NCBI RefSeq assembly: GCF_001536285.1
Contig: NZ_FAOZ01000001.1
Coordinates: forward strand, 62,001-126,000
DNA length: 64,000 nucleotides
Origin: Parafrankia irregularis
GTDB taxonomy: Bacteria; Actinomycetota; Actinomycetes; Frankiales; Frankiaceae
Reading direction: 5' to 3'
Shown here piece by piece: positions 5,033-16,552 of this stretch (the stretch's first letter is position 1; every line of letters starts with the position of its first letter). Both the position numbers and the translations under genes were made by a program. The notes under the pieces were generated by a model. The model searched no databases. It was not told where the DNA came from and saw nothing but the letters and a program-made list of their open reading frames with translations.

Positions 5033-5108
5033 TCCACACCGCCGGTTGATCCACACCGCCGGCTGATCCATGCCGCCGGCTGGTCCATGCCGCCGGCTGA
5101 CCCATGCC
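5024..5108. repeat. 17-bp tandem repeat, five units
   Basis: Five consecutive 17-bp units of the form GCCGGCTGATCCACACC, with single substitutions between units, run from the last codons of the amidohydrolase through its stop into the spacer before the convergent ABC gene. Because 17 is not a multiple of 3, copy-number changes would shift the frame, but the stop lies in the first unit, so the protein end is protected. Confidence 0.9.
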
Positions 5109-5148
5109 GTGCACGGACCGACGCCGCTCACCGGCCGCCCGGCCAGGC

Positions 5149-6951
5149 TCAGACCGCGGTGGCGGGTTCCGGAGCACCCATGGACGACGGCGGCGCTCCG
5201 GACGACGACCAGGCCGACCACATCCGCGCGTACCGCCCGGACGCGGCCACGAGCTCGTCATGGGTCCCCCGCTCGGCGACGCGGCCCTGCTCGAGCACCA
5301 GGACGTCGTCGGCGGCGGCGGCCTGGGTCAGCCGGTGCGCGACGACGATCACTGTCCGGCCTTCGAGCGCGCGCCGCGCGGCCCCCTCCAGCCTCCTCGC
5401 ACCGGCGCTGCCGGCGTCGGCGGTGGCCTCGTCCAGGACGACGACCGGTGCGTCCACCAGCAGCAGGCGGGCCAGCGCGAGCTCCTGTGCCTGCGTCGGG
5501 GTGAGGCGGTGGCCGCCCCGGCCCACCACCGTCCGCTCGGCGGAGGGCAACGCGGCGACCCAGGACAGCGCGCCCGCACGCTCCAGCGCCTGCTCGACGT
5601 CCGCGTCCGAGGCGTCGGGCCGGGCGAGGCGAAGGTCGTCGATCAGCGGGCCCGCGAAGACGTGGACCTCCTGGGTCACCAGCGCCACCGTGTCACGCAG
5701 CTGCTCCGGCCCGAGCTCACCGACGGGCACGCCACCGAGGCGTACCTCGCCCGCCGCCGGTGGATGCAGCCCAGAGATGATCTTGACCAGGGTCGTCTTG
5801 CCGGCCCCGCTGGCGCCCACGACCGCCGTCCACGTGCCGGGACGGACGGCGAGGTCGACGCCATGGAGGATCTCGCGGCCCTCGTCGTAGGCGAAGTCCA
5901 CGCCGCGGACGTCCACGGACGGCTCGCCGAGGGCGGCCCGCTCCCGCGGCGGCGGCGGGGCGACCCGGGCCACGCCGACGAGGCGGGCCAGCGCCGCACC
6001 GGCCTCCTGGGTCGTGTCGATCATCATCAGGATCATGTTGACCGGTTCGAACAGGCGGCTGAAGTAGAGCGCCGCCGCGGTCGCCGCGCCGACCGTCACG
6101 GCACCGTCGCGTACCAGGTAGAAGCCCGCGACGAGGACGACGCCCACACCGATCGCCTCGGACAGGTGCATGCGCCCCCAGAAGCGGGTCCGGAAGTGGA
6201 TCGCCCGGTAGGCGACCTCCACCGCCTCCTCGGAGCGACGCGCGGACCGGCGGAGGTGGTCGGGGCCGAGCCGGAACGCCCGCACGGTGTCGACGCCACC
6301 GACCGAGTCCAGCAGCTGCTGGGCCCGCGCGCCCTCGGCGATCCGCTGGTCCGCGAAGACCGGTCCCGACCGGCGCAGGTACCACCGCAACGCGTAGATG
6401 TCGGTCGGCAGGGCGAGCAGCGCGACGACGGCGAACCTCCAGTCGATGACAGCCAGGCCGACGGCCGTCATCCAGACCAGGAAGACCGACATCGCCAGGG
6501 TCGGCACGGTGGAGCGGATCGCGGCGGTCACGACCTCGACGTCGCCGCTGATCCGGGCGACCAGGTCCCCCGAGCCCCCGCGTTCGACCTCGCCGGCGGG
6601 CAGCCGCAGGGCCCGCTCCAGAACGTCCTCCCGCAGCGACGCGAGGACGGGCTCCCCGACGAGCGCGATGAGCGTCCTGGTCAGCGCCTGGAGGATTCCG
6701 GCGGCGATCGTCACGAACACCAGCACCTGCACGGGCCAGACCACGGCGCCGCGGTCACCGTCGATCGCGGCGTCGACGACCCAGCCGAGGGCGCGTGGCG
6801 TGACGAGCTGGAGCGCGGTCCCCGCCGACAGCACCAGGACCGTGAGCACCACGAGCGCCCAGCGCGGCCGAAGCAGCCGCACCGCGTACCGCCACGTCTC
6901 GCCCGCGGTGGCGGTGGGGAGAAGGCCGTCGTCCGATAAGGGTGTCTGCAC
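5149..6951 (-). CDS. ABC exporter half-transporter with consensus Walker motifs and degenerate signature
   Basis: The 600-residue protein starts at GTG 6951 after AGGAGAG. About 320 N-terminal residues form the six-helix exporter membrane domain, and a nucleotide-binding domain follows. Walker A (VGASGAGKTT), Walker B with catalytic Glu (VVVLDEAT) and the switch His (VVAHR) are intact, but the ABC signature reads LTPTQ instead of LSGGQ. It is the second gene of a two-gene operon (44 bp after 6996-8879), whose partner has exactly the opposite defects. Together they should form one heterodimeric exporter with one active ATP site at the inner membrane. The cargo is unknown; drugs, lipids or siderophores are typical for the family. 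Confidence 0.9.
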   Translation of the reverse strand: MQTPLSDDGLLPTATAGETWRYAVRLLRPRWALVVLTVLVLSAGTALQLVTPRALGWVVDAAIDGDRGAVVWPVQVLVFVTIAAGILQALTRTLIALVGEPVLASLREDVLERALRLPAGEVERGGSGDLVARISGDVEVVTAAIRSTVPTLAMSVFLVWMTAVGLAVIDWRFAVVALLALPTDIYALRWYLRRSGPVFADQRIAEGARAQQLLDSVGGVDTVRAFRLGPDHLRRSARRSEEAVEVAYRAIHFRTRFWGRMHLSEAIGVGVVLVAGFYLVRDGAVTVGAATAAALYFSRLFEPVNMILMMIDTTQEAGAALARLVGVARVAPPPPRERAALGEPSVDVRGVDFAYDEGREILHGVDLAVRPGTWTAVVGASGAGKTTLVKIISGLHPPAAGEVRLGGVPVGELGPEQLRDTVALVTQEVHVFAGPLIDDLRLARPDASDADVEQALERAGALSWVAALPSAERTVVGRGGHRLTPTQAQELALARLLLVDAPVVVLDEATADAGSAGARRLEGAARRALEGRTVIVVAHRLTQAAAADDVLVLEQGRVAERGTHDELVAASGRYARMWSAWSSSGAPPSSMGAPEPATAV

Positions 6952-6995
6952 GTGCTCTCCTGCTCTCCTCGTCCGGGGACCATTCCTGAGGGCGG

Positions 6996-8879
6996 TCAAG
7001 CGAGGACCAGCTCGCGGTAGCGCCCGTCGGTGCGGACGAGCTCCTCGTGCGTTCCCTCGGCCGTGATCGCGCCACCGTCGAGGAGCACGACCCGGTCGCA
7101 GGACGCCAGCACGGCGGGGCTCGCCGTCACGCACACCGTGCTCAGACCGGCGCGCAGGTCCCGCAGCCCACCGGCGATCCGACGCTCCGTCAGTGAGTCG
7201 ACCGCGGTCGTGGGCTCGTGCAGCACGAGCACGGGGGCGGCGGTGGCAAGGGCACGGGCCAGGGCGACCCGCTGCCGCTGGCCGCCGGACAGGGACGCCC
7301 CGCCGGAGCGCAGCCGGGTCTCCAGCCCGTCGGCGAGAGCCTCCCGCAGATCGTCGACGCCGGCCGCCGTCACCACCCGGTCCAGGTCGGCCGCCGGCGC
7401 CACCGACCGGATGTTGTCGAGCACGGTCCCGTCGAACAGGACGGCATCGTGTGGGGCGACGACGACCGACCGGCGGCTCGCGTCGGGGTGCAGCCCCGTG
7501 ACGGGCGTCCCGTCGAGCAGCACGGATCCGGCCACCGGGTCGGTGTCCCGGGCGAGGACGGACAGCACCGCCGCGGCCTCGCCCGGGTCGGCCGCGACCA
7601 GGCCCAGGAACTCCCCGGCGCGGACCTCCAGGTCGAGCTCGCGGACGCTGCCTACGGTGATCCCGGCCAGCCGAAGACGCGCCTCGCCCCGCCCGGGGCC
7701 GTCCTGCGACCCGGCGCCCTTCGCCGGCCGCGGACGTCCCTGCTGGTCGCCGGCGCCGTCACTTTCGTCGTGGCCGTCGCTTTCGCCGTGGCCGTGGCTG
7801 TGGCCGTCAGGCGCCGCGTGCTCGGGGCCGTCGACCGCCCAGGGGGCGTTCAGGACCGTGGCGATGCGACCGGCCGAGGCAACCGCCTGTGCCCGCTGGG
7901 CACCGAAGCCGGTGATCCGGTTGAGCGGGTCGATCAGGAACTGGGCCAGGCCGAGCGCGGTGATCAGCGCTCCGATGCTGATCGAACCGTCGGCGGCGAG
8001 CCGACCGGCCACCAGCGTGACGGCCGCGAGCAGGCCGCCCGCCAGCACCACCGCCAGCGCCCGGACCGTCGACTCCACCGCCGCCGCCCGCAGGGTGGCA
8101 CCCAGCGCGCGGCGGCTTGCCGCCCGGTAGCGCCCGACCGCGGCGCGTTCGCCGCCGAAGCCCTGGAGGACGCGCAGACCGGCGATCAGGTCGGCCGCCA
8201 TGCCGGTCGCGGCCGCCATGGTCGCGCGCTCGGCGCCGCTGCGCCGTTCCAGTGGCCGCCCGAGCAGGTGGGTGATCACCATGAGGAGCACCGTGCCGGC
8301 GACGACGATGCCGGTCAGCGGCAGGGAGAACCGGGCCAGGGAGACCACGGCGACGCCGACCCCGGCCACTCCGGACACGGCCATCGCCAGCGCGTAGTTC
8401 AGCATGCCGACCTTGAGGGTGTCGCCGGTCGCCAGGGCGACGAGCTGCCCGGGAAGCTGGTCGGCCTCGGCACCGCCGCGCGGGTCGAGGACGCGGCCGG
8501 CCAGCAGCATCCGCAGGTCATGACCGGCGCCCTGGACCGCGCGCAGGTTCGCGCGGAAACCCCAGCGCATCGCGCAGGTCAGCGCCACGAACAGCCCGAG
8601 CAGCACGGCGAGCCAGCGCAGCATCGACGCGCCGTCCCCGGTGGAGATCGCCCGGTCCACCGTGAGACCGATGGTGACCGGCACGAGGGCCTCGGCGACC
8701 TGGTGGCAGGACAGGAAGAACGACGACGCGCCCACCTGGCGCAGCTGGCCCCGGCGGGCCAGGTTCAGCACCGACGCGGCGGTGTGGGTCGTGGTGGTCG
8801 CAGTGCCGTCGCTGCCACCGCTGGCGCCTCCGGCGGGGGTGGCGCCGGCAGGCGCGACGGGGTCGGTCATGACGCTCAA
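6996..8879 (-). CDS. ABC exporter half-transporter with degenerate ATP site and intact LSGGQ
   Basis: The first gene of the exporter operon. A TTG at 8879 sits 6 bp after GGGGAG and is favoured over the ATG at 8870. The membrane domain spans roughly residues 45-340. The nucleotide-binding domain keeps the signature LSGGQRQRVALARAL, but Walker A is replaced by AADPGEAAAVLS (no Lys), Walker B reads LVLHEPT (Asp to His) and the switch His is absent (CVTASP). A His/Asp/Glu/Gly-rich insert (HSHGHGESDGHDESDG) joins the two domains and could bind metal. The protein cannot hydrolyse ATP alone; it supplies the signature to the partner encoded just downstream. Confidence 0.9.
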   Translation of the reverse strand: MSVMTDPVAPAGATPAGGASGGSDGTATTTTHTAASVLNLARRGQLRQVGASSFFLSCHQVAEALVPVTIGLTVDRAISTGDGASMLRWLAVLLGLFVALTCAMRWGFRANLRAVQGAGHDLRMLLAGRVLDPRGGAEADQLPGQLVALATGDTLKVGMLNYALAMAVSGVAGVGVAVVSLARFSLPLTGIVVAGTVLLMVITHLLGRPLERRSGAERATMAAATGMAADLIAGLRVLQGFGGERAAVGRYRAASRRALGATLRAAAVESTVRALAVVLAGGLLAAVTLVAGRLAADGSISIGALITALGLAQFLIDPLNRITGFGAQRAQAVASAGRIATVLNAPWAVDGPEHAAPDGHSHGHGESDGHDESDGAGDQQGRPRPAKGAGSQDGPGRGEARLRLAGITVGSVRELDLEVRAGEFLGLVAADPGEAAAVLSVLARDTDPVAGSVLLDGTPVTGLHPDASRRSVVVAPHDAVLFDGTVLDNIRSVAPAADLDRVVTAAGVDDLREALADGLETRLRSGGASLSGGQRQRVALARALATAAPVLVLHEPTTAVDSLTERRIAGGLRDLRAGLSTVCVTASPAVLASCDRVVLLDGGAITAEGTHEELVRTDGRYRELVLA

Positions 8880-9020
8880 GGCGCGCTCCCCGTCCCGGCG
8901 CGGGGCCTCGCCCGCCGACCGACCACACGTTCAGACAGGATCACGGCTCTCCTCGGGGTCGGGTGCTCGCGAGCAGGAGGGGTCACAGGACGCGGGGGCG
9001 GGAGTGTCGCGGGGCGCGGA

Positions 9021-9043
9021 TGGTCCCCGAGAGGGATTCGAAC
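9021..9043 (-). other. tRNA 3'-end-like fragment (T-loop, acceptor half and CCA)
   Basis: Read on the minus strand the sequence has a T-loop core GTTCGAATCCC followed by TCTCGGGGACCA. No matching 5' acceptor half (it would need to start TCCCCGA) is present about 70 bp upstream and the T-stem does not pair well, so this is not a functional tRNA. It could be the remains of an integration site or chance. Confidence 0.35.
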
Positions 9044-9232
9044 AGTCGCCGACAGCGACCGCGGCTGCGTAATGTCACTTTTACGCGCCACCACTCTGGC
9101 CGTCGCGGCACATTCGGCCATAAAACACGCTTGAACGGCCAACGGTGCGGTCGGGGCCGTGACGTGCCACCGGGAGCACCCTGCGCCGCCGCCCGCCGCC
9201 CGCCGCGCCACCCGGGGCCGCCCGGGGCCGCC

Positions 9233-9317
9233 CGCCATCGCCCGCCGCCCGCCATCGCCCGCCGCGCGCCATCGCCCGCCGCGCGCCATCGCCCGCCGCG
9301 CGCCACGGCCCGCCACC
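9233..9317. repeat. 17-bp tandem repeat, five units (last degenerate)
   Basis: Units of the form CGCCATCGCCCGCCGCG are repeated head to tail; four are nearly identical and the fifth diverges. It lies about 130 bp before the PAS gene. The unit length equals that of the repeat at 5024-5108, but the sequences are unrelated. Confidence 0.9.
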
Positions 9318-9447
9318 GCGCCGCTACCGCCGCTACCCGTCTGCGGGCGGCGCGCTACCGGCCCCGGCGATCCTCACCTGGCATCAGGCCCGGCGGGCGC
9401 CGAACGCCGCGGCCCCGACGATCCGCGCCCTGGAAAGGCTGGCCGCC

Positions 9448-10323
9448 ATGCCGATCGACGCGTCGCAGTACACCGGTGTCCCCGCCACCGACTACCTGCT
9501 GGAACTCGTGGACCTCTTCGACAACTCGAACATCGGCATCGGGGTCACCGGCGCCGGCGGGGCCATCAGGCGGGCGAATCCCGCATTTCGCCGCCTCGCC
9601 GGCTGGCCGGCGGTGGGCCAGGTCGAGCCGTCCGCGCGGGCGCTGCTGGGTGAGCAGACGTGGGGGCGGGTGACCGCCGCCGCGCTCGACGGGCGCGCGC
9701 TGCACAACCTGCCGGTCACCTTCCACCGCGCGGACGGGTCGACAGCCGACGCCCTGCTCGACGTCAACGGGGAGGCGGACGGCGCGGCCCTGCGCCTCGT
9801 CGCCCGACCCGCGTTCCGGGGCTCGCTCCCGGGCCCGGACGGGACAGCCGAGACGGATGTGCGGGACTGGCTCGGCCAGTGCGACCGGACCGACGGCGCG
9901 CCGCTCGTCGAAGGGCTCGACGAGGCCGGGGTCACCGCGCTGACGAAGGAGCTCGAGGACCTCTTCGAGCTGCTGCCCGTACCCCTGCACGGTATGGCCC
10001 GCACCGCCGAGGTGAAGCGGACCAACCAGATCCATCTCGAGTTCCTCGGCTGCCCCGACGAGCCCACCAGGTTCGTCGGCCAGAACCTGCTGGCCATCTT
10101 CGCCGTCGAGGCGGACCTGGTCGCGCTCGGCGCGAGCCTGACCGGCGTCGGCGCGATCCTCAACTTCCCGACCACGATCCGCCGTCTCGACGGCTCCGAG
10201 CTGCCCATGCGGGTCTACTCGAGCACGGTGACGCGGGGCGACGACTTCGTCGGCACCCGCTGCTACCTCTTCTTCGACGACGCCGCGGACGCCCCCGGCG
10301 GACTCGCCCCGGCCTCGACCTGA
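9448..10323 (+). CDS. PAS-domain protein
   Basis: The 291-residue protein starts at ATG 9448 after GGAAAGG. The N-terminal block (residues about 15-110: LVDLFDNSNIGIGVTGAGG, RRANPAFRRLAGW, VTFHRADGS) and the C-terminal block (residues about 165-280: ELLPVPLHGM, KRTNQIHLEFLGC, IRRLDGSELPMRVYS) both read like PAS sensor folds. There is no kinase, cyclase or DNA-binding domain, so it may act by binding a partner. It is convergent with nothing and is followed 50 bp later by the ligase gene. The ligand is unknown. Confidence 0.75.
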   Translation: MPIDASQYTGVPATDYLLELVDLFDNSNIGIGVTGAGGAIRRANPAFRRLAGWPAVGQVEPSARALLGEQTWGRVTAAALDGRALHNLPVTFHRADGSTADALLDVNGEADGAALRLVARPAFRGSLPGPDGTAETDVRDWLGQCDRTDGAPLVEGLDEAGVTALTKELEDLFELLPVPLHGMARTAEVKRTNQIHLEFLGCPDEPTRFVGQNLLAIFAVEADLVALGASLTGVGAILNFPTTIRRLDGSELPMRVYSSTVTRGDDFVGTRCYLFFDDAADAPGGLAPAST

Positions 10324-10373
10324 CCGATCGGACGCACGGTGAGTGATGGGCCGGTGGCGTATCGTCGAGGTCG

Positions 10374-11369
10374 ATGCCGGCTCTGCCTTCTCCCATGCTC
10401 GCCACCGCCGGGAAGCTGCCTCGCGGGGCAGAGTGGGCCTACGAGATCAAATGGGACGGGGTCCGGATCCTCGCCTCGGTGGCGGGCGGCCGGGTCCGCG
10501 CCCGCGGCCGGTCGGAGCGGGACGTCCTGACGGCCTACCCCGAGCTGGAAGCCCTCGCGGCCGACCTCGGGCCCGCCGACGCCGTCCTCGACGGGGAGAT
10601 CGTCGCCTTCGGGCCCGACGGCGTGCCCGACTTCGGGCGGCTCGCGCACCGCATCCACATCGCCGACCCGCACCGCGCGCGCCGGGCGGCGGCAGCCGTA
10701 CCCGTCCGCTACCTGGTGTTCGACCTGCTCGCGCTGGCCGGGCGCGAGACGGTCGATCTCCCCTACGACACCCGGCGGGCGATGCTGGCGGAACTGCCCG
10801 GGATCGACGTGCCGGAGTCCTTCCCCGGTGGGCCCGCGGGCGCCGCCGCGCGCGAGTCGGTGGACGTCGGAGAGTCGGTGGACGTCGGAGAGTCGGTGCT
10901 GCGGGCAAGCGCCGCGGCGGGCCTGGAGGGGGTGGTCGCCAAGCGCCGCGCGTCCGTCTACCAGCCCGGTCGGCGCAGCGCCGACTGGATCAAGGTGAAG
11001 AACGTGCGGCGCCAGAGCGTGGTGGTCGGCGGCTGGGAGCCCGGCCTGGGCCGTCGCTCGGCGCGGATCGGCGCGCTGCTGGTCGGCGTGTCCACCCCCG
11101 CCGGGCCGCGCTACGCGGGCCAGGTCGGCACCGGCTTCTCGGAGGCAACCCTGGACCGGCTCGCGGAGCTGCTCGCACCGCTGCGCACCGACCGCCCGAC
11201 CTTCCCCGACGTCGGCCCCGAGCAGGCCCGCACCGTGGTCTGGGTCCGTCCCGAGCTCGTCGCCGAGGTCGAGTTCACCGCGTGGACGGCGGATGGCCGC
11301 CTGCGCCACCCGTCCTTCAAGGGCCTTCGCGACGACCTGAGCCCGCTCGACACCGCCCGCGACGAGTAG
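10374..11369 (+). CDS. ATP-dependent DNA ligase (LigC/LigD ligase-domain type)
   Basis: The 331-residue stand-alone ligase has the covalent nucleotidyltransferase motif YEIKWDGVR (Lys near residue 25), motif III-like VLDGEIVAF, motif IV LEGVVAKRR and motif V DWIKVKN, followed by an OB-fold (residues about 215-320). It matches the ligase module of the bacterial NHEJ enzyme LigD and the related LigC; no polymerase, nuclease or Ku gene is nearby. Such enzymes seal nicks in end-joining or excision repair. An in-frame 18-bp repeat inserts ESVDVG twice between motifs III and IV. The ATG at 10374 has no strong ribosome site. Confidence 0.88.
   Translation: MPALPSPMLATAGKLPRGAEWAYEIKWDGVRILASVAGGRVRARGRSERDVLTAYPELEALAADLGPADAVLDGEIVAFGPDGVPDFGRLAHRIHIADPHRARRAAAAVPVRYLVFDLLALAGRETVDLPYDTRRAMLAELPGIDVPESFPGGPAGAAARESVDVGESVDVGESVLRASAAAGLEGVVAKRRASVYQPGRRSADWIKVKNVRRQSVVVGGWEPGLGRRSARIGALLVGVSTPAGPRYAGQVGTGFSEATLDRLAELLAPLRTDRPTFPDVGPEQARTVVWVRPELVAEVEFTAWTADGRLRHPSFKGLRDDLSPLDTARDE
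10854..10898 (+). repeat. 18-bp in-frame tandem repeat in the ligase gene
   Basis: Two perfect copies of GAGTCGGTGGACGTCGGA plus half a third encode ESVDVG repeats. The unit is a multiple of three, so changes in copy number keep the frame. Confidence 0.85.
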
Positions 11370-11487: not shown

Positions 11488-11841
11488 TCATGTGCCGTCC
11501 GGGTCGTCGAACGGGCCGTCCGGGCCGTAGGAGGCGACCTCGGTGTAGATGACCGCCCGCATCGCCGGGTCCTGCAGCGGGCGCAGCGGTGAGGTGGCCG
11601 GCTTGTGCTCCGCCCCGCTCTCCCAGGCGGCGAACTCGGCCATGCCGGTCCACTCGCTGACCACGGCGAAGCGGGACGGCTCCGCCGCCGAGCGCAGCAG
11701 CCGGTTGCCGAGCAGGCCGGGCGTGCCCACGAGCTTGGAGCTGATCTCGTGGTAGGCCCGCTCGACCGCGCCGGGATCGTCCGACGGGTCGACCGCCCAC
11801 AGCATCACCCGGACCCGGCCGCCGGCCGCGCCGGTGGTCAT
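11488..11841 (-). CDS. Antibiotic-biosynthesis monooxygenase-like (ABM) protein, last gene of PKS operon
   Basis: This 117-residue protein has a ferredoxin-like dimeric alpha/beta-barrel pattern (VMLWAVDPSDDPGAVERAYH, RFAVVSEWTGMAEFAAWE). It is of the size and type of cofactor-free quinone-forming monooxygenases such as ActVA-Orf6 and TcmH, which oxidise aromatic polyketides. Its ATG overlaps the TGA of the preceding gene by 4 bp (ATGA), so translation is coupled. It could equally be a non-catalytic ABM-fold protein. A hairpin terminator lies about 40 bp downstream. Confidence 0.75.
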   Translation of the reverse strand: MTTGAAGGRVRVMLWAVDPSDDPGAVERAYHEISSKLVGTPGLLGNRLLRSAAEPSRFAVVSEWTGMAEFAAWESGAEHKPATSPLRPLQDPAMRAVIYTEVASYGPDGPFDDPDGT

Positions 11842-12161
11842 GCGGACGCCGCGCCGACCAGGTGGGTGAGCACCGTCCCGGTCACCATCGACCCGCTGGC
11901 GCGCAGCGGGTGCAGGATCTTGCGGTGCTCCAGGTGGCCCGGGCTCTGCTCGAACGCGCGGAACTGGGCTTCGTCCACCCAGTCGCTGATGATGAAGTAG
12001 GTGCTCGCCTCGTCCTCGGAGCGGATCAGCCACTGGCCGAGGTTGGCCGGGTGGCTGGTCACGCCGTCCCCGATGCGCAGCCAGGTCTGCTCGAACTCCT
12101 GCTCACGGCCCGGGTGGATGTGCATGGTGAGCATGATGCGGAACGGCTGCGGGTGACCCAT
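11838..12161 (-). CDS. ABM-fold monooxygenase-like protein in PKS operon
   Basis: The 107-residue protein (FRIMLTMHIHPGREQEFEQT, TYFIISDWVDEAQFRAFEQS, EHRKILHPLR) is a second small ABM-fold protein next to 11488-11841. The ATG at 12161 overlaps the ketoreductase stop by one base (TGATG). Pairs of ABM proteins occur in pigment and angucycline-like clusters, where one oxidises the polyphenol; which of the two is active here cannot be read from sequence. Start and frame are well supported by the tight overlaps on both sides. Confidence 0.75.
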   Translation of the reverse strand: MGHPQPFRIMLTMHIHPGREQEFEQTWLRIGDGVTSHPANLGQWLIRSEDEASTYFIISDWVDEAQFRAFEQSPGHLEHRKILHPLRASGSMVTGTVLTHLVGAASA

Positions 12162-12898
12162 CAGATTCCTCCGTCGACCGTGAAGGTGGCGCCGTTGACG
12201 TAGCTGGACACGTCGCTGGCCAGGAACAGCACGACCGCCGCGACCTCGTGCGCCTCGCCGAGCCGGCCGAGCGGGATCCGGTTGGTGTAGGCGGTGCGGG
12301 CGGCCTCGGGCATGCCGGCGGCCTGGTCGGTCTCGATGACGCCCGGCGAGACCAGGTTGACCCGGATGCCCTTGGAGCCGAGCTCCTTGGACAGCGAGCG
12401 GGTGAGGCCGATCAGACCGGTCTTCGCCGCGGTGTAGTGGGCGCGCAGCGGCACGCCCACCACACCGGCGCCGGAGCCGATGTTGATGACGGTGCCGGAG
12501 TCGCCGAGCAGCTCCAGCGCGCCCTGGGTGACCAGGTGCGTCGCGGTGAGGTTGGTGGACAGCACCTGCGTCCACGCCTCCAGCGGCAGCTGCGCGTACG
12601 GGACGTGGCTGATCGTGCCGACGCTGTTCACGACGATGTCGAGACCGCCGAGGTGGGCACCGGTGGCCGCGATGAGCTCGGTGATCTGCGCGGGGTCGGC
12701 GACGTCGGCCTGCACCAGCAGATGCTCGTTGCCGGTGGCCTTGAGCTCGCGGCGCAGGCTCTCCGCCTCCTCGGTCTCCCGCTGGTGACCGACGACGACG
12801 GTGGCGCCGGCCTGGGCGAGCCCGAGCACGACGGACCGGCCGATCCCGCGCGTGCCGCCGGTGACCAGGGCACGCTTGCCGGCCAGGTCTGGGAACAT
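12161..12898 (-). CDS. Polyketide ketoreductase (SDR family, FabG-like)
   Basis: A 245-residue classical short-chain dehydrogenase. The NADP-binding motif TGGTRGIG lies at about 13-20, with an NSVG motif where NNAG is usual, and catalytic Ser142, Tyr155 and Lys159 (in INIGSGAG and YTAAK). In aromatic PKS clusters this enzyme reduces one keto group of the nascent poly-beta-ketone, usually at C9, and so steers the first ring closure. ATG 12898 follows AGAGGA; a TTG one codon upstream is also possible. It lies 75 bp after KS-beta, the widest internal gap of the operon. Spore-pigment clusters usually lack a KR, so the product may be a reduced aromatic. Confidence 0.85.
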   Translation of the reverse strand: MFPDLAGKRALVTGGTRGIGRSVVLGLAQAGATVVVGHQRETEEAESLRRELKATGNEHLLVQADVADPAQITELIAATGAHLGGLDIVVNSVGTISHVPYAQLPLEAWTQVLSTNLTATHLVTQGALELLGDSGTVINIGSGAGVVGVPLRAHYTAAKTGLIGLTRSLSKELGSKGIRVNLVSPGVIETDQAAGMPEAARTAYTNRIPLGRLGEAHEVAAVVLFLASDVSSYVNGATFTVDGGI

Positions 12899-12973
12899 CA
12901 ATGGTCCTCTCTACCGCCGAAGCGGATGACTCTGATGATTCGGATGAAGCGGGCCCGGCCAGGCTGAGCCCGG

Positions 12974-14281
12974 TCAGGCTGGGTCGACTGCCCGGAGCAC
13001 CAGCGAGCTGTTGAAGCCGCCGTAGCCGCGCGCGTTGACCAGCGCGACCCGGACCCGGCCCTCCCGCGGCGTCCGGACCAGGTCCAGGCCGTGGGCGGGG
13101 TTCGGTTCGTCCAGGTTGCCGACCGCGGGGATCACACCGTCCCGGATGGCCAGCAGGGCGGTCGCCGCCGCCACCGCCGACCCGCCGGCGCACAGCCGTC
13201 CGATGAGGCCCTGCGGCGCGGTGACGGGCACCGCCCCGGCGCCGAACACCGAGCGGATCGCCTCCGCCTCCAGCGCGTCGAGGTCCGCGGAGCCGGCGCC
13301 GTCGGCGAAGACGACGTCGACGTCGGCCGGTGCCAGGTTCGCGTCGGCGAGCGCCCGGCGCATCGCCGCGGCGAGCCAGCGGGCGTCGCCCGGGGCCTGC
13401 TCGTGGTGGGCGCCGTCGTGGGTGGCCGCGTAGCCGGCGATCTCGCCGTACACCCGGGCACCACGGCGGGCCGCGGTCGCCGGGTCCTCGACGAGCAGCG
13501 TCGCGCCGCCCTCGCCGGGCAGGTAGCCGTTCGCGCGGACGTCGAAGGGCTTGTACCCGTCCGCCGCCTCGGACGCGGTGCTGACCCGGCCGCTGCTGAG
13601 GTGGCAGGTGAGCGCGTACGGCGTCAGCCCGGCCTCGGCCCCGCCGGCGAGCACGGTCGGTGTGCCACGCCGGATGGTGCGCCGGGCCTGTGCGAGGCTG
13701 TCCAGCCCACCGGCGGTGTCGCTGACCAGCACACCGGACGGACCCTTGAGCCCGTGCCGGATGGAGGTCTGACCGGTGGTCGCCGCGTAGAACCAGGCGA
13801 TCGACTGGTACACGCTGACGGCGGTGCGCCCCCGCGACCACAGCCGGGACAGCTCACGCTGCCCGAAGTCGTTGCCGCCGGAACCCGCGCCGAACACGAC
13901 CGACGTCTCGTAGGGGTCGTGGTCGGCCGGGTCGTAGCCGGCGTCGGCCATCGCCAGCCGGGACGCGGCCATGCCCAGCCAGGTCCACCGGTCGGTCTGG
14001 ACGATGTACCGGTTGTCGATGAAGGCGTCGGCGGCGAAGCCGGGGACCTCGCCGGCGAGCCGGGCGTCGTAGCGGCTGGCGTCGAACCGGGTTATCGGCG
14101 CGACGCGCAGCTCGCCGCGCAGCGTCGAGGCCCAGTGCTCCTCGGTGCCCAGGCCGCTCGGCGCGATGACGCCGAGCCCGGTGATGACCGGGCGCACCAC
14201 CGGATCGGGCCGCGCCGATCCGGTGCCGGTGTCCGTGCTGGCCGACGCGCCGGTTGCCGCGCCGGTGTCGAGAATCGTCAC
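12974..14281 (-). CDS. Type II PKS chain-length factor (KS-beta)
   Basis: A 435-residue ketosynthase homologue in which the active-site Cys is absent: the nucleophile region reads [12 protein letters not shown], with Thr189 at the position where most chain-length factors carry a conserved Gln (QAGG). It pairs with KS-alpha to form the minimal PKS heterodimer that sets chain length. The GTG at 14281 overlaps the KS-alpha TGA by 4 bp. Residues 1-30 are a Ser/Thr/Gly-rich extension. Other KS features ([39 protein letters not shown]) are kept. Confidence 0.92.
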
Positions 14282-15624
14282 GGCCGGTCCCCCGCCGCCA
14301 GCACGATCGCGGACTGGAAGCCACCGAAGCCGCTGCCGACCGACAGGGCGACGTCCACCTTGTGATCACGGGCGATGTTCGGGACGTAGTCCAGGTCGCA
14401 CTCGGGGTCGCGGGTGGCCCAGTTCGCCGTCGGCGGCACGACGTTGTGCTCGATCGCCAGGGCGCAGGCGGCCAGCTCGATGGAACCGATGGCGCCCAGC
14501 GAGTGGCCGACCATCGACTTGATCGAGCTCACCGGGGTCTCGTAGGCGTGCGCGCCCAGCGAACGCTTGAAGGCGGCCGTCTCGTGCCGGTCGTTCTGTT
14601 TGGTGCCCGAGCCGTGCGCGTTGATGTAGTCGACCGCGGTCGGGTCCAGACGCGCCTGGTCGAGCGCGATCCGGACGGCCTCGGCCATCTCGACCCCGTC
14701 TGGGCGCAGGCCGGTCATGTGGAAGGCGTTCGACCGCGACGCGTAGCCGCCGACCTCGCAGTAGATGTGCGCACCGCGGGCCCGCGCGGACTCGAGCTCC
14801 TCCAGGACGAGGACGGCGCTGCCCTCACCCATGACGAAGCCGTCGCGGCTGGCGTCGAACGGCCGGGAGGCGTGCTCGGCGTCGTCGTTGCGCGCCGAGG
14901 TGGCCCGGATGGCGTCGAAGCAGGCGATGGAGATCGGTGACAGCGGTGCGTCCGACGCGCCGGCGATCACGATGTCGGCCTCGCCGTCGACGATGAGCTG
15001 GTGGCCGTAACCGACGGCGTCGATGCCGGAGGTGCAGCCGGTCGAGACGACGAACGACGGGCCGTGCGCGCCGAACCGGCAGGCGATCTCCGTCGCCAGG
15101 CAGCTCGGCACCAGGGCGTGGTAGAGGAACGAGCTCGCGTAGCGCGGGTCGACCTCCCACAGCTTGCCGCTGTCGCTGACGACGACGTACTCGTTCTCCA
15201 GCCGGGTGGTCGCCCCGACGGCGCTGCCCATGCTGACGCCGACGATCGGGCCGTCGCCCGGCTCGCCCTCGCCCCCCTCGCCGTCGAGCTCCAGGCCGCT
15301 GTCGGCGACGGCCTCGATCGCGGCGGCCAGCGCGAACTGGACGAACCGGTCGTTACGCGCGATCTCCTGGCGGCTGAGGCCGGCGGCCAGCGGGTCGAAG
15401 TCGCATTCGGCCGCGATCTGCGACCGGAACGGCGACGGGTCGAAGAAGGACAGCCGCCGGGTGGCGGTGCGGCCGTCGGTGAGCAGGGTCCAGAACTCCT
15501 TGCGGTTCGAGCCACCGGGAGCGACGACGCCGATCCCGGTCACCGCGACGCGGCGCGGGCCCCCGCCCAGGGACGCCGGCCCGCGGGCGTCGTCCGGCCG
15601 CGACCGCTGGGTCGGCTCGTTCAC
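14278..15624 (-). CDS. Type II PKS beta-ketoacyl synthase alpha subunit (KS-alpha)
   Basis: The 448-residue condensing enzyme has the full catalytic set: Cys197 in [10 protein letters not shown], His337 in NAHGSGT and His374 in [11 protein letters not shown], with [15 protein letters not shown] typical of the family. It extends malonyl units on the ACP with KS-beta as partner. GTG 15624 overlaps the cupin stop (GTGA) and its own stop overlaps KS-beta, so cupin, KS-alpha and KS-beta are translationally coupled. A cupin directly before KS-alpha is the order seen in whiE/curC-type spore-pigment clusters. No malonyl transferase, CoA ligase or phosphopantetheinyl transferase is nearby; those must come from elsewhere. 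Confidence 0.95.
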
Positions 15625-16052
15625 GGCTGCGGCTGCTCGGGGTGCGGCAGCGGCTCGGTGTCGACATGGCCGAGGTCCGGCCGCGGGGCGAGCGGGCTGA
15701 GGTGGAACACCAGGAAGGCCACCTCGTCACCGGTGTTCACGATCCGGTGGCGCATGCCGATCGGGATGAGCAGGCCGTGCTCGGCCGGCAGAGCGGTGTG
15801 CTCGCCGTCGAGGCGCGCGGTCACCGACCCGGAGACGCAGTAGAGGAACTCCTCCGAGTACGGGTGCCAGTGCTCGGTCACCACTTCCTCGGGCTGCAGG
15901 GTCAGGGTTCCCAGGAAGCCCGACTTGGCACCGACGGTCGCCGGCGAGAGCAGCGTCCGGATGTCACCGCCACGACGCCGGTTCGCGGGAACGTCGTGGA
16001 TCGAGAGGACCTTGGGGACCGTCAGGGCGGCGGTCGGGGTTGCGATGCTCAC
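15621..16052 (-). CDS. Cupin protein of type II PKS cluster (WhiE-ORFII/CurC-like)
   Basis: The 143-residue single cupin has [17 protein letters not shown] as motif 1 (metal-type His and Glu) and [19 protein letters not shown] as motif 2. GTG 16052 follows GAGGAG at 7 bp. Homologues in spore-pigment clusters are required for normal pigment, but their reaction is uncertain; a role in cyclisation or oxidation is assumed. It lies 11 bp after the aromatase gene. Confidence 0.85.
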
Positions 16053-16063
16053 CGGGATGCTCC

Positions 16064-16552
16064 TCAGACCTGCTCGGGAACCGCGCTGCCCACCGGTACG
16101 GCGGACCGGGCGGCCAGTTCGACCTTGTCGCGGATGGCTGCCATCTCGCGGGGGGTGTTGGTGTTGATCCGGGCTGCCATCTGCTCGTCGTTCGCCGGGG
16201 CGGACGGGCGCATCTGGAAATCCTGGACCCAGCGCATCCGGGTGCCGGTGCCCTCGGGGGCATAGGTCCACTCGATGTGCATGTACTCGAACGGGCCGGT
16301 CTCGACCCGATAGGCGCGGACCTTGTGGTTCACCGGGTCGAGGATTCGCTCGGAAACCCAGCTCCAGGCGGTGCCCGACTCGTCCGGATGCATCGTGAGA
16401 CGGAACTTGAACGTGTTGTCCGTACGTTCGAGAATCTCGACCGACGCGTACTCGGTGAACAACGTCGGCCAGGATTCCAGGTCGTTCGTCATCGACCAGA
16501 CCAGGTCGATGTCGGCATCGATGAAGATCGAGTTGTCAGTATGTGCGCTCAC
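16064..16552 (-). CDS. Polyketide aromatase/cyclase (SRPBCC, TcmN/WhiE-ORFVI type)
   Basis: A 162-residue START/SRPBCC-fold protein, the length of one aromatase/cyclase domain. It begins NSIFIDADIDLVWSMTNDLE and contains WPTLFTEYASVEILE, then WTYAPEGTGTRMRWVQDF and a C-terminal helix (PREMAAIRDKVE), as in TcmN N-terminal and WhiE ORFVI cyclases that close and aromatise the first rings. Start GTG 16552 after GGAGC. It sits between ACP and cupin, 42 bp after the ACP stop. Confidence 0.9.
   Translation of the reverse strand: MSAHTDNSIFIDADIDLVWSMTNDLESWPTLFTEYASVEILERTDNTFKFRLTMHPDESGTAWSWVSERILDPVNHKVRAYRVETGPFEYMHIEWTYAPEGTGTRMRWVQDFQMRPSAPANDEQMAARINTNTPREMAAIRDKVELAARSAVPVGSAVPEQV

Follow-up and report, generated by a model that had tools for sequence, protein, structure and literature searches.

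A paired ABC half-transporter of Parafrankia irregularis with one consensus and one degenerate nucleotide-binding site

The gene pair and its two composite sites

Two adjoining genes in Parafrankia irregularis, here called A and B, encode ATP-binding cassette (ABC) half-transporters in which all losses of conserved nucleotide-binding residues converge on one composite site, that made up of the Walker side of A and the signature of B. The genes lie in a 64,000 nt stretch (assembly GCF_001536285.1, contig NZ_FAOZ01000001.1, positions 62,001 to 126,000), which is referred to as the window and in which coordinates are given (Table 1). Both are on the minus strand, with gene A transcribed first (8870 to 6999) and gene B second (6951 to 5152). 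Gene A starts with an ATG at 8870, with an alternative TTG at 8879. The most likely start of gene B is the GTG at 6951, which would leave an intergenic gap of about 45 bp, and not that of the longer open reading frame (ORF) at 7134, which falls within gene A. A plus-strand ORF at 5104-6939 overlaps gene B and is probably a high-GC shadow of its coding strand. Each protein carries an ABC_membrane domain (PF00664) followed by an ABC_tran domain (PF00005), the order of transmembrane domain (TMD) and nucleotide-binding domain (NBD) of a half-transporter, and a domain search at E up to 0.001 found these two domains only, with no SIP domain in either.

In A, the sequence VAADPGEAAA stands in place of GxxGxGK[ST] and the Walker A Lys is gone, VLVLHEPT stands in place of LDEAT so that HEPT replaces DEAT, and VTASP is found where AHR would be expected at the switch; LSGGQ is kept. 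In B, the Walker A, the Walker B with its Glu and the switch His are intact, and LTPTQ replaces LSGGQ. The working site is made up of the Walker side of B and the LSGGQ of A. These losses and retained motifs had been claimed by the initial annotation, made from the window alone, and the motifs and homologues bear out its proposal of complementary losses that leave one consensus and one degenerate composite site. Three further losses at the same site had gone unremarked: the Q-loop Gln of A, the A-loop Tyr of A and the D-loop Asp of B. The description of that site as fully degenerate is not literal, since A keeps its Walker B Glu, the sole conserved catalytic residue remaining in the dead site.

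Table 1. Features of the A and B genes, with positions in the window
Feature	Position	Strand	Evidence
Gene A, TMD-NBD half-transporter, degenerate Walker side	6999..8870	-	PF00664 and PF00005, motifs, dN/dS
A: His/Asp/Glu-rich TMD-NBD linker	7755..7820	-	absent in 34 homologues compared, tandem repeat, low-confidence model
A: P-loop remnant VAADPGEAA	7572..7598	-	motif reading, P-loop column consensus, model helix start
A: Q-loop APHD, His replaces Gln	7434..7463	-	motif reading, family alignment
A: intact signature SLSGGQRQ, pairs with the Walker side of B in the working site	7272..7295	-	motif reading, family alignment
A: Walker B VLVLHEPTTAVDS, without Asp but with Glu, D-loop Asp intact	7194..7235	-	motif reading, family alignment
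A: switch region VCVTASPA, His lost, family-specific SP	7113..7136	-	SP in 86/87
Gene B, TMD-NBD half-transporter, intact Walker side, LTPTQ signature	5152..6951	-	PF00664 and PF00005, motifs, dN/dS
B: intact Walker A GASGAGKTT	5791..5817	-	motif reading
B: intact Q-loop VTQEVHVF	5656..5679	-	motif reading
B: altered signature RLTPTQAQ	5485..5508	-	motif reading, family alignment
B: intact Walker B LDEAT, then D-loop ADAGS, Asp lost	5407..5445	-	motif reading, family alignment
B: intact switch His, AHRL	5329..5352	-	motif reading

A family trait under purifying selection

Homologues were aligned in two overlapping sets, the first with 34 A and 32 B sequences and the second with 65 A and 64 B. 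Collapsing of duplicates reduced 100 A sequences to 87 and 97 B sequences to 83, with the window included and the outgroup, locus L112, excluded; B copies cut by locus ends were dropped motif by motif, which gives the readable rows counted here. GK[ST] is present in none of the 87 A sequences, while SGGQ or SGGE and the D-loop Asp are present in all of them. Gln is never found in the A Q-loop column (H 49, K 11, N 8, T 6, A 5, Y 3, P 3, S 2). The Walker B Asp column of A has H 42, V 22, D 17, Q 3, I 2 and R 1, the Glu column has E 48, D 37 and N 2, and the switch window has no His in any of the 87, with SP in 86. For B, the Walker A Lys and Q-loop Gln are present in 83 of 83, DE and the switch His in all 69 readable rows, and SGG in none of 77; the D-loop Asp is lost in 35 of 69. 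The window pair has every feature of the pair family: an A without GK[ST] but with SGGQ/E and the switch SP, and a B that keeps the Walker A, DE and His and has lost SGG.

The P-loop of A has a consensus of its own. Over the 101 A and 98 B rows aligned here, which include the window, duplicates and the outgroup, A has Pro in place of the Gly at the fourth position in 82 rows and Ala at the Lys position in 70, and B has G, G, G and K at the corresponding columns in 98 of 98. The A-loop Tyr is likewise present in all 98 B rows, and the A rows have no conserved aromatic residue there. The initial annotation had allowed that a Lys or signature might lie elsewhere, or that intact motifs in related genomes might point to a sequence error. 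No displaced Lys or signature was found, and the homologues do not have intact motifs; a Lys falls within the aligned P-loop window in three A rows (L078, L081, L146), in none of them as GK[ST]. The altered state is therefore a trait of a large actinobacterial subfamily, and not an error.

In a count made by eye, 91 of 197 sampled genomes of the class have a best A match of at least 462 bits (E 3e-138 or better), the next genome having 373.5 bits. The motifs were checked in part of the 91, and because the A profile was made from degenerate members the survey may favour degenerate relatives. A single scan of the genome contigs yielded 7 weak loci.

In a tree of 75 B proteins, the outgroup aside, one half (35 rows) keeps the D-loop Asp and the other (39 rows) nearly always has Gly, the states having been assigned along the tree by eye; the B of Tsukamurella, which keeps the Asp, is an exception within the Gly half. 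The B of the window and the four copies from the same genus make up one clade (100/100) inside the Gly half. The outgroup itself (L112, contig 2 of genome G279, 5602-9402) is a single fused transporter of 1267 amino acids in which the Walker A is intact in both halves. Its asymmetry is milder, with DD for DE and a Gln at the switch in one half and LSAGQ in the other, and it perhaps resembles an earlier stage of degeneration.

The NBDs of the window's own genome provide a control. Eighteen stretches, picked from the best of 135 ABC matches, and one NBD from L105 were aligned with L082, L105 and the window, giving 35 NBDs, a few of the controls resembling non-exporter ATPases. Six of the 35 belong to this family, as three pairs (window, contig 3, contig 27). 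The Walker A Lys is kept in 29 of the 29 others and in none of the three A copies. The pair is the more extreme case: the other sampled ABC proteins show Asp or Ser for Glu, variants of the switch His, and LSAGE or LSTGQ, but never loss of this Lys. The pattern recurs among distinct sequences, 87 of A and 83 of B, and set against those 29 NBDs it is not due to chance. That most heterodimers lose little, as had been claimed initially, fits the sample from this one genome, which is not a survey of all exporters; the emphasis on complete loss was overstated, since yeast Pdr5 offers a precedent.

Between the window and the four same-genus copies, protein identity is 74-81% for A and 76-82% for B. 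The ratio of non-synonymous to synonymous substitution rates (dN/dS) is 0.28 and 0.33 for A against two congeners and 0.25-0.28 for B against three; the sixth comparison, A with L080, was lost to an ambiguous base. A is under purifying selection, at a pace about equal to that of B. Its slow evolution and its own motif consensus, the P-loop Pro and the switch SP, would suggest that the altered site is maintained. A sequence error or decaying pseudogene can be ruled out with near certainty, as the four congeners (74-82% identical) share the motifs, dN/dS is about 0.3, and the same state is seen across many families.

Predicted mechanism and comparison with known exporters

The AlphaFold2 models of the two subunits are those of ordinary half-transporters, with a mean predicted local distance difference test (pLDDT) score of 85.2 and a predicted template modelling (pTM) score of 0.60 for A, and 83.5 and 0.65 for B. 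They were compared by secondary structure, as single subunits. In B, the strand at 374-379 is followed by a five-residue loop, ASGAG, and by a helix that begins at the Lys; in A, the strand at 424-429 (FLGLVA) is followed by two residues and then by a helix at 432-442 (PGEAAAVLSVL). With its helix beginning so close to the strand, the phosphate-binding loop of A looks closed in the model. The replacement of the P-loop by a conserved motif, with a helix in its place, would mean that the dead site probably binds no ATP. Sequence searches of the PDB returned general type IV exporters, with no close relative among the best 60 matches listed in each search, and fold searches with the A model returned general exporters with tied Z scores and full-chain root-mean-square deviations of 17-19, with no nearest structure singled out.

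The linker between the TMD and NBD of A was a further subject of the initial annotation, which had placed a His/Asp/Glu-rich linker in the second subunit and seen in it a possible metal sensor. The linker exists, in gene A, the degenerate subunit. The segment is 81 residues with 5 His in the window, compared with 35-62 residues and 0-4 His in the 34 homologues, and the four same-genus copies have 0-2 His. An 18-bp tandem repeat at 7746-7807 encodes much of it, and the model of A falls below a pLDDT of 50 at residues 353-372 and 374-396. The His-rich linker is a repeat expansion peculiar to this copy of A. Metal sensing by it is unsupported and was rejected, the linker having no counterpart in the 34 homologues, overlapping the repeat and being modelled at low confidence.

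The best explanation for the pair, and one considered reasonably likely, is that the two proteins work together as an obligate heterodimeric type IV exporter, with one functional nucleotide site, a hinge at the other interface and a metal chelator as cargo. B would bind ATP through its Walker A, Walker B, Q-loop and switch His, and the LSGGQ of A would close the site. The opposite interface, between the former P-loop of A and the LTPTQ of B, would most likely bind no ATP and act as a standing protein-to-protein hinge, so that one ATP per cycle would drive the pump. Either subunit alone should be dead, since B paired with itself would lack a sound signature and A paired with itself a sound Walker side. 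It is also on balance plausible that this is a large natural exporter family running on one nucleotide per cycle, in which one NBD no longer binds ATP and has become a dedicated signature donor and hinge and its old P-loop is now the conserved, DP-containing start of a helix.

Heterodimeric type IV exporters with one degenerate site, to which A/B can be likened, include MsRv1273c/72c, TM287/288, TmrAB and BmrCD. The usual hallmark of a degenerate NBD, which is not universal, is replacement of the catalytic Walker B Glu, and A keeps this Glu. StrV/StrW of the streptomycin clusters may be relatives as well. Loss of all motifs in one site is already known from Pdr5, although in another fold: Pdr5 and the other ABCG proteins of the PDR group are single polypeptides in NBD-TMD order, whereas A and B have the TMD first, with a PF00664 membrane domain. 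The pair family is a distinct case, found in bacteria and built on the type IV fold, and appears to be further gone in the P-loop than Pdr5, which reportedly keeps the P-loop glycines. Every motif of one Pdr5 site is altered, with changes at the Lys of Walker A, the Glu of Walker B, the His of the switch and the signature of the partner (PMC7756269, PMC8421411), and activity was lost when four of its motifs were returned to consensus (PMC7756269). No description of this bacterial family was found in the literature searched, which is a weak absence given the thin coverage of subscription papers.

It has been proposed, in a review and in the study of MsRv1273c/72c, that ATP serves as glue between the NBDs at a degenerate site (PMC7756269, PMC12038006). 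Were this so here, as has been proposed for TmrAB and MsRv1273c/72c, ATP would be held unhydrolysed at the second site and the losses would do no more than stop turnover there. It is the general model for degenerate exporters, and Pdr5 binds ATP at its degenerate site without a Walker A Lys (PMC8421411). In MsRv1273c, however, which has Asp for Glu and Gln for His, the ATP lies in a Walker A groove (PMC12038006), and here the Walker A is gone. A lacks the P-loop glycine pattern, the Lys, the Ser/Thr, the Q-loop Gln and the A-loop Tyr, and B of the window clade also lacks the D-loop Asp. The NBDs of MsRv1273c/72c can, moreover, stay in contact at an empty degenerate site (PMC12038006), which would suggest that glue is unnecessary for contact. 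ATP glue is for these reasons given a minor share of the probability, and an empty site acting as a hinge is preferred.

Gene neighbourhood and cargo

Siderophore-type genes were taken to be those for SidA, FecCD permease, binding protein, SIP or formyltransferase, the score cut-offs having been chosen once the matches had been seen. They lie within about 7 kb of 20 of the 34 first-set loci, a count that has no background rate beside it, and at three of nine annotated plasmid loci (L114, L116 and L135, but not L113, L137 or L209-L212); the L209-L212 pairs entered the plasmid count without a motif check, and four further loci carried no annotation. In the case of L211 (5010-8620), on a plasmid of Streptomyces globosus, a pair annotated as ABC transporter ATP-binding proteins and not checked for motifs lies beside dpgA, dpgB, dpgC and a P450 gene, so that some B-like matches may lie in peptide antibiotic clusters. 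At L114 the homologous pair is accompanied by a non-ribosomal peptide synthetase/polyketide synthase (NRPS/PKS) gene, a SidA-type monooxygenase, a formyltransferase, iron-chelate permeases and a binding protein, which we take to be the layout of the coelichelin locus. CchGI (SCO0491/SCO0493) of S. coelicolor is the presumed exporter of coelichelin (PMC12161575). It would appear to belong to this family, the likeness being drawn through the content of L114 and not through the S. coelicolor sequences.

A second known system is TetAB, described as an ABC pump for tetracyclines and beta-lactams (PMC8304765). On plasmid pTP10 of Corynebacterium striatum, where TetA/TetB is annotated as tetracycline efflux, an A-type gene precedes a B-type gene, as here. 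TetA as deposited keeps LSGGQ and lacks the Walker A region, like A; TetB is like B in keeping the Walker motifs and switch His and in having lost the signature, where it has IPPEV, and it shares an AEAG-type D-loop. It groups with the window's half of the B tree, where its branch is long and its place unsure. The two differ from A and B in being distant (221 bits to B, 78.5 to A), shorter and on a resistance plasmid, and B scores 222.7 bits against NCBIfam tet_ABC_AB_B (subunit B), below the curated cut-off of 999. At the locus itself (L113, 4566-7691), TetA and TetB as deposited are both without stretches that relatives have, and the plasmid table has no coding sequence with a protein accession for tetA. 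Metal chelation is common to siderophores and tetracyclines. By kinship, the cargo of the window pair is thus probably a metal-chelating secondary metabolite, pumped outwards, although this is a guess.

The neighbours of the window pair are of another kind. An amidohydrolase gene is nearby in all five genomes of the window clade, a regulator of the Streptomyces antibiotic regulatory protein (SARP) type is near the pair in at least the window, L078, L079 and L080, and a type II polyketide cluster lies some kilobases from the pair. In the window this cluster (11488-16552) has genes for the ketosynthase (KS) subunits KS-alpha and KS-beta, a cupin, a cyclase and a short-chain dehydrogenase/reductase (SDR); KS-alpha is 92-99% identical in the five same-genus genomes searched. 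A gene for an ATP-dependent DNA ligase (10374-11366) lies between the pair and the polyketide genes.

It is possible, though clearly the less probable case, that the pair exports the aromatic product of this cluster, which begins about 3 kb away (about 11.5-17 kb in the window); this would concern the cargo alone and is compatible with the best explanation. The pair and KS-alpha are on the same contig, about 10-17 kb apart, in three of the four same-genus genomes with the pair, and an aromatic polyketide is what TetAB, probably related, pumps out. Distance and order differ between relatives, however, and genome G296, the relative most similar in this region, has the cluster and no pair. Over 12.4 kb, to position 10358, its DNA is collinear with that of the window and 94.6% identical. 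Beyond this (L121, 12340-17622) the ABC pair and the gene at 9448-10323 are missing, their place being taken by other DNA of about 5 kb that contains a long ORF; no close copy of A was found elsewhere in the 400 contigs of G296, where the best match has 34% identity. The pair would therefore be optional beside that near-identical cluster, which weakens any firm link between the two.

It is improbable that the pair instead imports siderophores while having the fold of an exporter, as mycobacterial IrtAB and YbtPQ do. Siderophore genes adjoin many relatives, SIP genes lie beside L105, L106 and L107 (one in the window's genome and two in the same genus) and L116, and IrtB heads the list of fold matches to the A model, tied with many exporters. 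An N-terminal SIP domain on one subunit is, however, the defining feature of IrtAB, and A and B have none. Many of these loci already carry a FecCD/binding-protein uptake system, TetAB is annotated as efflux, and CchGI, whose family membership is judged from locus content, is a presumed exporter (PMC12161575).

Several observations weigh against the reading of A/B as a one-site exporter of metal chelators. A itself retains the Walker B Glu, the Walker B Asp is retained in 17 of the 87 A sequences, and Pdr5 provides a case of ATP bound without the Lys. One locus, L099 (contig 8 of G107), has an A-type gene with no B partner within 6.6 kb on either flank; another of the first 34 A loci, L109, runs into a contig end. 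No siderophore-type genes were found in the stretches covered around the window pair and its four same-genus copies, which, together with the absence of the pair from G296, makes any assignment of cargo tentative. The stretches missing from TetA/TetB and the long branch of TetB make their support weak.

If the reading of a one-site exporter is true, type IV exporters can do without ATP glue at the degenerate site. A stable family that is seemingly unable to bind ATP at this site would make the glue assumption directly testable in tractable soil bacteria. The family would also offer a case in which signature donor and ATPase are naturally separate, and sequence alone would mark a class of exporters that are often associated with siderophores.

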